NCBI GenBank assembly: GCA_024408105.1
Contig: JAKSVG010000002.1
Span: forward strand, 1 to 64,000
Source: Bacilli bacterium
GTDB taxonomy: Bacteria > Bacillota_I > Bacilli_A > RFN20 > CAG-826
Length of the DNA stretch: 64,000 bases
Direction of reading: 5' to 3'
Below are positions 38,876 through 44,739 of the stretch, piece after piece. The notes beneath the pieces were generated by a model. It saw nothing but the letters and a program-made list of their open reading frames with translations, ran no database searches and had not been told where the DNA came from. Every line of letters begins with the position of its first letter. Position 1 is the first letter of the stretch. A program made the position numbers and the translations under genes.

Positions 38876-38900
38876 AAAAAAATAATGCTATTATAAATAA

Positions 38901-38979
38901 GCCATCGCGATAGGTCTTTACGAACCAGGTCAGGATAGGAATATAGCAGCCTTAAGTATCCGATCTATGTGCGATGGTT
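38901..38979 (+). ncRNA. ffs: Signal recognition particle RNA, small bacterial type
   Basis: The roughly 79-base RNA is closed by GCCATCGC (38901-38908) pairing with GCGATGGT. It holds the diagnostic S-domain: GGTCAGG, a 3-bp stem capped by the GGAA tetraloop, then AGCAGCC. A TATTAT -10 lies at 38889-38894. The RNA pairs with Ffh to target membrane proteins. It is the short 4.5S type without an Alu domain, unlike the long SRP RNA of Bacillus subtilis. tadA starts 9 bases downstream, overlapping the terminal T-run. Confidence 0.9.
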
Positions 38980-38987
38980 TTAAAAAA

Positions 38988-42005: not shown

Positions 42006-42891
42006 TGAAGTTAAAAAAGCATTGAGCGAAAACAAACCAGTTGTTGCTTTGGAATCGACGATTATTTCCCATGGAATGCCATATCCAAAAAATGTTCAAA
42101 CAGCATTGCTTGTTGAAAAGACAATTCGCGAACATGGTGCGATTCCTGCAACAATCGGAATCATTGATGGCGAACCAATTATTGGTATGTCAAATGAAGA
42201 AATAGAAGAATTCGGAAAACGTAAAGGAATTAGAAAGGTTTCTAGAAGAGATCTACCAATCGTTTATGCAAAAAAACTTTGGGGTGCAACTACAGTTGCT
42301 GCAACAATGATATTAGCGTCACAAGCAGGAATAGAAATATTTGTTACAGGTGGTGTTGGCGGAGCGCACCGCGGTGCCCAAGACACCTTTGATATTTCAG
42401 CTGATTTAGAAGAACTTGGTAAGACAAATGTTACTGTTATTTCAGCTGGTGTTAAAGCAATTTTAGATTTAAATCTAACGCTAGAAATTTTGGAAACTAA
42501 AGGCGTCCCTGTTTTGTCATATCAAAGCGATGAATTTGCTGATTTTTACACTAGACATTCTGGCATCAAAATGGAGAATGTTGTTTCTTCCGCTAAAGAA
42601 ATTGCTGAAATTATTAAAGCTAAAAGAGACAACCATCTCGATGGCGGAATGCTTGTTGCAAATCCAATCCCTGAGGAATTTGCAATGGATGATAAGATAA
42701 TTAATGGAGCGATAGAAAAAGCCCTTAAACTTGCTGATGAGCAAGGAATCAAAGGTAAAGATGTCACACCTTTCTTATTGAAAACCATTGTCGAATTAAC
42801 TAATGGTGATTCTTTAGAATCAAATATTAAGTTAGTTCTTAATAATGCAAAACTCGGAGCCTCTATTGCCAAGGAATTAACTCAGTTATGA
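41992..42891 (+). CDS. psuG: Pseudouridine-5'-phosphate glycosidase
   Basis: PsuG reversibly splits pseudouridine 5'-phosphate into uracil and ribose 5-phosphate. The 299-residue protein has the family sequence ALESTIISHGMPYP, the metal/phosphate region FVTGGVGGAHRGAQDTFDISADL and a catalytic Lys in the WGATTVAATM/KK region. The pseudouridine kinase PsuK, usually adjacent, is not in this window. AAGGAG near the end of the ATPase gene serves as the ribosome site. A TetR-like gene overlaps its stop (ATGA). Confidence 0.93.
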   Translation: MKISNEVKKALSENKPVVALESTIISHGMPYPKNVQTALLVEKTIREHGAIPATIGIIDGEPIIGMSNEEIEEFGKRKGIRKVSRRDLPIVYAKKLWGATTVAATMILASQAGIEIFVTGGVGGAHRGAQDTFDISADLEELGKTNVTVISAGVKAILDLNLTLEILETKGVPVLSYQSDEFADFYTRHSGIKMENVVSSAKEIAEIIKAKRDNHLDGGMLVANPIPEEFAMDDKIINGAIEKALKLADEQGIKGKDVTPFLLKTIVELTNGDSLESNIKLVLNNAKLGASIAKELTQL

Positions 42892-43433
42892 AAATAGAAG
42901 CCAAGTTTCGTGATGGATTAAAACTTCTTATGAAGAGTAAATCACTTGATGAAATCAATGTGGTCATGCTTTGTAATACCGTAAAATCCAATCGCCAAAC
43001 CTTCTACTATCATTATCGTGATATATCAGATGTTATTGAATCGATGTTTCTTAAAGAAAAAATTCACAATTCATCTAGAGTTTTCGAATATGAAAATATT
43101 ATTAAACCTTTAATTGCCTACATTAATGCAAATATCACATTTTTGGTTGCTGTTGGCAGTTCGTTTGCAAGCGATAAACTAGAAAATTTCTTATATTCAT
43201 ATTTTTACCAAAAAGCTTCTCAATATCTTTCGTTTAGTGGAAAGAGTAAAGAACTCACAACTAAGAATCACAACAACGTGTTGAGAGGCTTATCAATCAT
43301 TCTTTCTAAAGAAATGTTCTTTTGGATAATGAACAAATCTAAAGAAAGACAAGCGCATCTTATAAAAAGATTACACGGCGTATGGGTATATTTTATTGAT
43401 ACTTATCCAACCGAATTAAAAGCTATCAAATAA
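42888..43433 (+). CDS. TetR-like transcriptional regulator
   Basis: The 181-residue protein starts with a TetR-type helix-turn-helix (LDEINVVMLCNTVKSNRQTFYYHYRDISDVIE). The remainder is helical and resembles the C-terminal domain of DhaS/TetR_C-type regulators. It overlaps psuG by four bases and lies directly before a promoter flanked by an 11-base inverted repeat, which makes that repeat a natural candidate target. The ligand is unknown. Confidence 0.75.
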   Translation: MKIEAKFRDGLKLLMKSKSLDEINVVMLCNTVKSNRQTFYYHYRDISDVIESMFLKEKIHNSSRVFEYENIIKPLIAYINANITFLVAVGSSFASDKLENFLYSYFYQKASQYLSFSGKSKELTTKNHNNVLRGLSIILSKEMFFWIMNKSKERQAHLIKRLHGVWVYFIDTYPTELKAIK

Positions 43434-43441
43434 AATCTATT

Positions 43442-43498
43442 GATGTCTTAACTAAACAAAAGTGATAGAATTGTAAACAATAAATCGGTTAAGACATC
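43442..43498 (+). promoter_or_regulatory. Promoter flanked by an 11-base inverted repeat
   Basis: GATGTCTTAAC (43442-43452) and its exact reverse complement GTTAAGACATC (43488-43498) flank the extended -10 TGATAGAAT (43463-43471), with 35 bases between the arms. The arrangement suits a repressor acting on the M50-like gene downstream. The arms could also pair in RNA if transcription comes from the TetR gene. Confidence 0.55.
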
Positions 43499-43590
43499 CC
43501 GCTTAGGCGATTAAATGCGAAGATAATGCACACGTTTGATTGGCACTTCGCTAATCGCAAAAAGAGAAAGATTCTCTGAGGAGGGATCTT
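43496..43590 (+). ncRNA. Structured mRNA leader before the M50-like gene
   Basis: GCGATTA (43507-43513) pairs with TAATCGC (43552-43558). Directly inside, GCGAAG (43517-43522) pairs with CTTCGC (43546-43551), leaving a one-sided AAT bulge. TGC (43527-43529) may pair with GCA (43543-43545) after an ATAA bulge. A second hairpin AGAGAA/TTCTCT (43563-43577) abuts the GAGGAGGG ribosome site. ATCCC (43496-43500) could pair with GGGAT (43583-43587) of that site. I do not recognise a known riboswitch. Confidence 0.5.
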
Positions 43591-44739
43591 ATGAAAAAAG
43601 AAGACATTGCAAGTTTTATTGTCTATATCCTAATGATTGCATTAGCAATTATTATCGGATTTACTTTAGTAAAAGACATGTTTACTGCATATAACAATGC
43701 ATATGGAAGTCGCGCACTTAATCCATATGTTTTTGCAATCCTTATTATCTTACTTGGAATTATTCTAAATGCATTTGGATTAGAACTATTTCATGCACTG
43801 GGAGGAAAAATTGGAGGATACTCAATTGTTTCTTTGAATGTTTTTGGATTTTGCTGGTACAAAAAAGACGGAAAATTCAAATTCAAATTTAAAGATTTTG
43901 ATGGATTAACTGGAGAAACAGTTCTTGCTCCAAAGAAAGAAAAAGCCTCTCCAAAGGCATATGTTTGGCTTCCATTATTAATGTATGTTGTTGAATTAAT
44001 AACATGCATCATTCTATATTCAATTGGCTCTAATAAAGATTTAGCAAAAGACGATAATCCACTTATATGGATTGGCACCGCTTCAATCATCTTTATTACA
44101 ATTTCATCAATGATGGCTCTATATAACTTTGTTCCAGTTAAACTAGATTCAATGACTGATGGCTATAGACTCACATTAATTTCTAAGCCTGCAAACATTG
44201 AAGCCTACAACGAACTTATGAGAATCGAAAACCTTCAAAGAGAGGGCAAAGACCTAGATTCTATTAAAGTATTTGATGAGGTGACAGATTTCACTGCACA
44301 AATTAACCTAATGACAGTTTATGAATCTTTGTCTAAAGAGGATTATCAATCTGCTCTTAAACTTATTGATAAAATGTGCCAAACACCAGAAAAGATTTCT
44401 CACGCAACGTTCAATAGACTAATCGCTCAAAAACTTTATATTAAACTTGTTACACTTCCATTAGATGAAGCAAGAAAGTATTATGATGAAGAAGTTAGCG
44501 ACTCTATTAGAAGATTCATTTCAAACGATTTATCAATGGAGTCAATTCGCGCGTATGTATTAATTGCTGGACTACTTGATGATTCACTTGCAGAAGTTCA
44601 ATTTGCTGATTCAAGAAAAGCTAAAGCGATGAAACGCGCTCTTAAAACACGAGCAAAAATTGAAGAAAAATTATATAAATCTGCAATCACGATGGTTAAA
44701 GATACTCATAAAGATTGGGATATGAGCGAAATACAATAA
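43591..44739 (+). CDS. Membrane protein resembling M50 site-2 peptidases, active site degenerate
   Basis: The 382-residue protein has N-terminal membrane helices (about 10-30 and 45-63), then LELFHALGGKIGGYSI, a loop with FCWYKKDGKFKFKF and GLTGETVLAP, two more helices (about 122-143 and 157-178) and a soluble helical C-terminus of about 200 residues. The layout resembles a Firmicutes family of M50-like proteins in which HExxH precedes a GGY turn and a KENGKFK-type strand. Here the first His is Leu64 while Glu65 and His68 remain, so zinc peptidase activity is doubtful. The resemblance is from memory and needs a profile search. It has a strong GAGGAGGG site and its own terminator. Confidence 0.55.
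   Translation: MKKEDIASFIVYILMIALAIIIGFTLVKDMFTAYNNAYGSRALNPYVFAILIILLGIILNAFGLELFHALGGKIGGYSIVSLNVFGFCWYKKDGKFKFKFKDFDGLTGETVLAPKKEKASPKAYVWLPLLMYVVELITCIILYSIGSNKDLAKDDNPLIWIGTASIIFITISSMMALYNFVPVKLDSMTDGYRLTLISKPANIEAYNELMRIENLQREGKDLDSIKVFDEVTDFTAQINLMTVYESLSKEDYQSALKLIDKMCQTPEKISHATFNRLIAQKLYIKLVTLPLDEARKYYDEEVSDSIRRFISNDLSMESIRAYVLIAGLLDDSLAEVQFADSRKAKAMKRALKTRAKIEEKLYKSAITMVKDTHKDWDMSEIQ

Follow-up and report, generated by a model that had tools for sequence, protein, structure and literature searches.

A candidate RNA switch ahead of an M50-like membrane protein gene, found both in noncoding leaders and in the last codons of an upstream gene

What is a short structured leader doing between a gene for a TetR-like regulator and a gene for an M50-like membrane protein, and why should it fold back over the ribosome site of the second gene? 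This is the question raised by positions 43442-43590 of the window, by which we mean the whole 64,000-nucleotide stretch of bacterial DNA that was analysed, and our answer, built on comparison with relatives, is that the leader probably holds an RNA switch, roughly 95-150 nt long and acting in cis, by which translation of the M50-like gene is controlled, a reading to which we would give roughly two chances in three. The same comparison shows that what we take to be one element is read in two ways, either as the leader of the M50-like gene or as the last codons of an alcohol dehydrogenase-like (ADH) gene lying upstream of it. From the outside in, the element consists of P0, which pairs an upstream strand with the Shine-Dalgarno region, P1' as the outer stem, S1 as a hairpin stem about 3-9 pairs long, the loop of that hairpin, and S2, which pairs the 3' part of the S1 loop with the strand just after S1. 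The original prediction for this DNA had named two stacked helices, a second hairpin, an ATCCC strand facing GGGAT in the ribosome site and an inverted repeat, and every one of these is present in the sequence (Table 1 and below).

Table 1. Parts of the window leader and the genes on either side of it, in window coordinates
Feature	Position	Strand	Basis or remark
TetR-like regulator gene, upstream	42888..43433	+	family scores below curated cut-offs
Anti-Shine-Dalgarno strand, 5' arm of P0, ATCCC-G-CTT	43496..43504	+	pairs with ribosome site in minimum-energy fold; equivalent strand covaries in both contexts
ATCCC	43496-43500	+	complementary to GGGAT in ribosome site
Outer stem P1', 5' arm, GCGATTA	43507..43513	+	pairs with TAATCGC 43552-43558; outer stem covaries among relatives
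S1 5' arm, outer part, GCGAAG	43517..43522	+	pairs with CTTCGC 43546-43551; S1 covaries
S1 5' arm, inner part, TGC	43527..43529	+	pairs with GCA 43543-43545; inner S1 pairs seen in alignment A2
Apical loop, ACACGTTTGATTG	43530..43542	+	carries conserved ACACG and the S2 5' arm TGATTG 43537-43542
S1 3' arm, GCA and CTTCGC	43543..43551	+	sequence match
TAATCGC, 3' arm of P1' here and also S2 partner strand (TAATCG 43552-43557)	43552..43558	+	
Small hairpin AGAGAA-AGA-TTCTCT ahead of ribosome site	43563..43577	+	arms 43563-43568 and 43572-43577
Shine-Dalgarno region, GAGGAGGGAT, 3' arm of P0	43578..43587	+	pairing probabilities
M50-like membrane protein gene, putative target of the element, 382 aa	43591..44739	+	

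The minimum-energy fold of 43496-43590 is the very arrangement that had been proposed, with a one-sided bulge between the two stacked helices and with ATCCC/GGGAT closing the whole over the Shine-Dalgarno site. Its energy of -29.2 kcal/mol (z -2.85) was equalled by 1 of 200 shuffles and, in a separate shuffle set, by 6 of 1000, and the longer stretch 43470-43620 gave a weaker result (z -1.97; 9 of 200 shuffles as good). Across the first eight bases of GAGGAGGGAT the pairing probabilities run 0.27, 0.83, 0.94, 0.68, 0.01, 1.0, 1.0 and 1.0. The two uses of TAATCGC, as an arm of P1' and as the partner of S2, are mutually exclusive, and in the window S2 is weak (TGATTG/TAATCG, with two G-U pairs), the strand closing P1' instead. 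No terminator was found in the window leader. Folding alone is weak evidence, and relatives were therefore compared.

The inverted repeat deserves a word of its own, since the prediction had it flanking a promoter, and here only the repeat itself stood up. It is perfect over 11 bases (43442-43452 and 43488-43498) and was reached in 2 of 500 shuffles of the region, but a scan of 43380-43620 for sigma-70-type promoters gave 0 sites (shuffle mean 1.0), so that a sigma-70 promoter within the repeat was rejected; a TGATAGAAT stretch does lie at 43463-43471 despite that null scan. The repeat was not seen among the relatives' leaders that were read by eye. Its right arm overlaps the first anti-Shine-Dalgarno bases and, if transcribed, could compete with P0 in the window genome.

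Is this simply a known RNA? Rfam 15, run over the whole window at the gathering cut-off, returned only a bacterial small SRP RNA (38899-38983, 57.1 bits), which lies away from the leader. For the leader itself, at E up to 10, the only matches were to tRNA at 15.3 bits (cut-off 29) and to Phage_DGR at 12.3 bits (cut-off 50), and nine related loci gave none at E up to 1. A known Rfam RNA was rejected because nothing scored at the gathering cut-off, and the description of the leader as unrecognised stands, with no Rfam family for it.

Relatives were easy to come by, with homologues of the M50-like protein in 204 of the 224 genomes of the window's family. The DNA preceding the M50-like gene was read at 109 loci, among them the window's own and two from a single genome, which comprise 29 of the 30 from the first homologue search and 80 from down the ranked list of homologues, some chosen for genus spread; a locus whose gene start is missing (L024) was left out. 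A motif, ACACG-NNN-R-N-U(U)G or a near variant of it (ACACA in five, ACACC in one), precedes the M50-like gene at 56 of these 109 loci, about 40-100 nt ahead of the start codon, six other loci having been barred before counting as chance occurrences of ACAC. Going by labels assigned from reading frames, 27 of these motifs are in noncoding leaders and 29 are inside the last codons of an upstream ADH-like gene. The loop ACAC was a search condition, so that its constancy within the motif set is not evidence by itself; what can be said is that ACACG stands at the motif place in 50 of the 109 loci, against 2, 3 and 0 of 109 in three equal stretches farther upstream. The other 53 loci are without the motif, and the M50-like gene can therefore do without the element. 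In part of the window's own genus (nine loci) the TetR-like gene abuts the M50-like gene, with neither ADH nor element, a sign that the element can be lost. Three loci without ACACG (L085, L098 and L110) have another sequence in common at the ribosome site, approximately TTAnTAGACGTnTnnTCATTAGGAGG and some 40-20 nt ahead of the M50-like start; this may be the element in a degenerate or replaced form.

How constant is the architecture around the motif? A covariance model of the hairpin, R1 (accepted at E 0.05 or better per genome), added 32 loci, making 82 distinct sequences across both contexts. In 74 of these the energy of S2 is better than -3 kcal/mol; the remaining eight, in which S2 is weaker, include the window's own. 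Where S1 and S2 are both strong, the 3' strand of S2 begins between 1 base before and 2 bases after the end of the S1 3' arm in 39 of 54 rows.

The more telling question is whether relatives keep the pairing while they change the bases. Alignment A2 holds 34 of the 53 rows of alignment A1, chosen for a 13-base loop with pairing not considered, and in it S1 is paired in 73.5% of cells, against 55.5% after shuffling, with a covariation score of 0.594 against 0.256 (0 of 500 shuffles; slid controls at or below 0.21). All six of its pairs have changed on both sides somewhere among these rows, which are the compensatory changes in relatives that the original prediction had named among its checks. 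The cleanest partner-swap tests used rows found by the motif alone, with near-copies dropped. In 19 such noncoding rows, S1 scored 4.96 against 1.84 for swapped partners and S2 5.32 against 3.31 (0 of 500 each), P0 9.09 against 6.92 and the outer stem 7.26 against 4.10 (0 of 300 each), figures to be read with the knowledge that swaps leave relatedness in, that the stems differ widely among the noncoding members, and that in short leaders (L031 and L062, for example) the outer-stem test takes in part of P0. In 29 ADH rows the corresponding values were 6.68 against 4.47 for S1 and 6.09 against 4.85 for S2 (0 of 500 each), with 9.92 against 8.10 for P0 and 7.00 against 5.33 for the outer stem (0 of 300 each).

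The outcome of the swaps was unchanged when rows found with R1 were added; the 32 extra loci bias the S1 counts upward, R1 holding S1 itself but little or nothing of the S2 partner, P1' and P0. With those rows the noncoding set numbers 34, of which three (L167, L175 and L177) have an open frame across the available sequence, and the tests were repeated without these and without close copies. In 34 ADH rows placed in one register, two-sided changes are found in 8 of 8 pairs of S1 and 3 of 7 pairs of S2, the S2 count being the cleaner since R1 contains S1 but not the partner strand of S2, and the score is 0.373 against 0.222 (0 of 500), with slid pairings losing the signal. On a stricter measure, the number of pairs that run on from the loop with no break, S1 in the ADH rows did not stand out from its control (mean 3.29 against 2.79, with the largest swap at 3.46), because many ADH members are mismatched next to the loop. 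These comparisons show that the four predicted helices, P0, P1', S1 and S2, are selected as RNA. Homologues with covarying stems, on which the original prediction stood or fell, are spread across a bacterial family, and the suspected masking of the ribosome site has fared just as well, its upstream strand and Shine-Dalgarno pairing being conserved and covarying in noncoding and ADH contexts alike.

Can an RNA really be kept inside the codons of a gene that has its own protein to make? In the ADH genes the motif is mostly read as Gly-Thr-Arg-x-Ile-Gly. The upstream gene that was scanned, that of L003, matches NCBIfam alcohol dehydrogenase models at up to 217 bits, below their curated cut-offs, and the upstream genes of other loci are taken as ADH from their length and sequence. 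When synonymous codons were randomised, with synonyms drawn at the genes' own codon usage, pairing in the 29 motif-found ADH genes was 6.68 against 3.73 for S1, 6.09 against 3.20 for S2 and 10.06 against 8.02 for P0 (0 of 200 each). Over all 47 ADH genes (of 48, one being left out of the anti-Shine-Dalgarno and synonymous tests for want of a recognisable start), S1 fell from 8.52 to 4.21 and S2 from 6.46 to 3.33 (0 of 300), and P0 from 10.91 to 8.41 (0 of 200). The partner in P0 is a local one, since the stretch from -45 to -15 relative to the motif, within ADH codons, gives 10.91 against 9.03 when swapped (0 of 200), the next stretch out, -75 to -45, is marginal (9.21 against 8.63; 11 of 200), and that from -110 to -80 has no signal of a P0 partner (7.62 against 7.76; 134 of 200).

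The codons tell a similar tale. Of the CGN codons at the motif 25 of 27 are CGT, a codon that the same genes use for about 28% of CGN (0.16 of 0.57), and with ACACG as the search condition only its last base is informative; the codon that follows ends in G in 43 of 43 rows, R1-found rows included. The protein does not dictate the motif, since Thr-Arg can be kept without it, as in the ADH genes of L057 and L063, which use other codons (ACT AGA) and have no RNA motif. These two belong to eight loci (with L055, L059, L060, L069, L070 and L073) whose ADH-like genes have similar residues at the motif position (Thr, Asn or Ala, then Arg or Lys) in other codons and with no RNA motif, and which make a natural control set.

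Where, then, does the window leader come from? In two loci of the same genus (L033 and L034) the order is IndA-like, TetR-like, ADH-like and M50-like, then an MscL-like gene on the opposite strand, and the ADH ends carry a variant of the motif (ACACAT) and a decayed form. The window has the IndA-like gene (by Pfam), the TetR-like gene, the leader, the M50-like gene and a short HTH-like gene, again with an MscL-like gene on the opposite strand, the HTH-like and MscL-like labels here coming from reading with no family search behind them. Six same-genus ADH loci were tested for the window's TetR-like protein, and in all six a homologue (E 1.4e-17 or better) is encoded immediately ahead of ADH; four of them have the canonical ACACG. 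Three loci from other genera (L020, L026 and L028) gave no match to that protein. The ADH gene is gone from its place between the TetR-like and M50-like genes in the window. The leader aligns with the ADH 3' ends of close relatives, weakly outside the motif, with the motif kept and, by eye, a stretch beyond it; in that alignment the small hairpin ahead of the ribosome site also looks, by eye, like the ADH 3'-end codons of a sister species. Judged from gene order and alignment, the window leader is most likely the retained 3' end of a lost ADH gene.

ADH-like genes also sit beside M50-like genes in another family of the order (four loci, identified by reading), and for this reason ADH is taken as ancestral. 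In a quick tree of 63 M50-like proteins, built without eight duplicate loci and without proteins shorter than 320 residues, 50 are motif-bearing (34 ADH, 16 noncoding), and their contexts need 11 changes, the fewest possible on this unrooted tree; well-supported branches alone force 11 changes when the noncoding group is set against all other rows. Both contexts occur within one genus, where L041 has ADH and L042 and L043 do not. The direction of change, from ADH to noncoding, we infer, and the comparison shows that the predicted element has been kept repeatedly in genomes from whose place beside it ADH is missing.

How might such an element work? We picture the P1', S1 and loop domain, when folded, as favouring the closing helix P0, which would hide the Shine-Dalgarno site and so turn the M50-like gene off. 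A factor that binds the loop domain, be it a metabolite, an ion or a protein, would shift this balance, and the switching step may be an exchange between the extended S1 hairpin and a pseudoknot containing S2. A long S1 and S2 can hardly both stay complete within a classical H-type pseudoknot, and it is from this geometry and the link of 0-2 nt between the two helices that the exchange is deduced; with so short a link, the three-dimensional form is uncertain. In genomes with the element inside ADH, ribosomes completing that gene would melt the element, and the two genes would thereby be coupled as well. Competition for the anti-Shine-Dalgarno strand by a hairpin lying upstream in leaders generally was also considered and rejected, with 5.52 against 5.49 and 91 of 200 shuffles as high in 29 of the 34 leaders (the other five fell out because the strand exceeds 24 nt or the upstream stretch is too short). 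In individual leaders such as L031 and L174 the ribosome-site sequence does recur upstream, where its pairing with the anti-Shine-Dalgarno strand could release the site, an arrangement that is not general.

What the switch would respond to is a harder matter. The domain that one looks for in a riboswitch is here, ahead of a gene, structured and conserved, its stems covarying and some of its unpaired bases kept. Pairing between the anti-Shine-Dalgarno and Shine-Dalgarno strands, which is selected as far as sequences can tell, may serve as an expression platform acting on translation. It is quite possible, if somewhat short of probable, that this is a new class of ligand-sensing riboswitch, one that resides in the 3' end of the protein gene upstream, where almost every base doubles as part of the last 35-45 codons, and that outlives repeated loss of that gene as a leader.

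The rival that survives best has an RNA-binding protein, a translational repressor or activator, and no small-molecule aptamer, acting at the same place. A short hairpin with a conserved loop and a freely changing stem is indeed typical of such sites, and a single target gene in one bacterial family would fit a lineage-specific regulator. The selection on S2, P1' and P0 as well as S1 means, however, more architecture than a simple protein site needs, and the obvious neighbour, the TetR-like regulator, is a DNA-binder by family and is found beside M50-like genes that have no element; we regard this explanation as rather unlikely. Less favoured is an element for processing or stability that separates the ADH message from the M50 message and survived as the 5' end of the latter. 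It would sit where one should expect it, at the ADH/M50 junction of the presumed ancestral arrangement, but the element is also present where ADH is absent, and processing has no need of the Shine-Dalgarno pairing that is itself selected, which leaves this an improbable reading.

The remaining explanations fare poorly. An RNA thermometer, in which only P0 and the hairpins would matter, agrees with the paired Shine-Dalgarno site in the fold; such a device would be a simple Shine-Dalgarno helix with no call for a conserved loop, yet the loop sequence is conserved and ACACG is far above the control stretches in both contexts, so that a temperature sensor is very unlikely. A DNA operator for the neighbouring TetR-like regulator would draw on the TetR-like genes upstream in the window and in all six same-genus ADH loci tested, and on the palindromic look of the commonest loop, ACACGTGT. 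Many loops are not palindromic, however, and changes in the three variable loop bases are matched by changes in a strand some 10-20 nt off, in pairing register, with G-U allowed and with the signal lost when the pairing is slid, which makes an operator extremely unlikely. Chance folding of a functionless ADH fossil, for which one might cite the way the leader aligns, around the motif, with ADH 3' ends, is scarcely credible in the face of covariation in the noncoding set alone and of synonymous-site selection in the coding set.

Has anything of this sort been seen before? Structured cis-regulatory RNAs are of course a known kind, and this one is absent from Rfam and from the literature text searched. 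What is unusual is that a switch, including the strand that masks the ribosome site of the next gene, is encoded in the last codons of the upstream gene and is kept without that gene. Sequestration of the Shine-Dalgarno site by a compact junction or pseudoknot is the way of the translational riboswitches SAM-III/SMK, SAM-II and preQ1-I, and pairing at the ribosome site is what the present element shares with them; it differs in having no Rfam match and in overlapping the upstream coding region, and to our knowledge the conserved ACACG..TTG is in none of the three. Another comparison is the yjdF motif RNA, which is not known to lie inside an upstream coding gene, and which has no match in the window leader at E up to 10. 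Like our element, the yjdF RNA (the azaaromatic riboswitch) is reported as an orphan candidate whose association is nearly confined to a single gene of unknown function (PMC4793209). The idnO motif is likewise a strong riboswitch candidate found partly in Erysipelotrichaceae, and differs in being described as quite large and in filling the whole manX-idnO intergenic region (PMC11109978).

The pipeline of that paper removes intergenic regions with known coding sequence, and the ADH-embedded form would therefore be missed (PMC11109978). Structured RNAs that overlap coding sequence, as this one does, are treated in PMC8040213, whose main text holds no mention of alcohol dehydrogenase, M50 or Erysipelotrich-, though its tables may list the element; nor is the element mentioned elsewhere in the literature text searched. 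Both pipelines start from intergenic regions and remove coding overlap or set it apart, and an element lying in coding sequence at 29 of 56 motif loci would tend to escape them.

We think that the locus is of interest for several reasons. It amounts to a natural experiment in which the same RNA is held under protein and RNA constraint in some genomes and under RNA constraint alone in others, so that the cost of double coding becomes measurable, and it offers an example of how a leader can be born, with a neighbouring gene lost and the switch in its tail spared. If the ligand-sensing reading is true, it would trace a direct path from coding sequence to 5' regulatory RNA, and a ligand, if found, would both establish a new riboswitch class and hint at what the M50-like protein does.

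How far does the element reach? Of 245 genomes of the order R1 matches 78, every one belonging to the window's family and at least four by chance, with about a dozen chance matches expected at E 0.05 across 245 genomes; in at least four of the 78 (G004, G030, G174 and G244) the matches that were looked at lie away from the M50-like gene. A search of the class matched 24 of 395 genomes, 20 of them in the window's family, and two of the four outside it (L210 and L216) lie inside reading frames. Of the R1 matches away from the listed M50 places eight were retrieved; one (L185, in G108) is again ADH followed by M50, and the other seven are in, or antisense to, other reading frames and were rejected as pointers to other target genes. 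There is one clear target gene, the M50-like one; more than one is usual for riboswitches and is not required.

What, finally, is the protein that this element would control? 'M50-like' is a statement of resemblance, not of membership, as Pfam M50 gave no match at E up to 0.1, Foldseek against the PDB found nothing better than E 0.1 and PDB sequences nothing better than E 0.6. The zinc motif of Peptidase M50 is HExxH, and in 24 aligned M50-like sequences its first His is absent throughout and E65 and H68 are invariant; this is perhaps an altered or dead protease fold. Peptidase M50 is also marked by a multi-pass membrane core with a second motif of LDG type, and here the protein has a conserved LDSMTDGY. 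The structure model has a pLDDT of 89.1, and there is a helical C-terminal domain.
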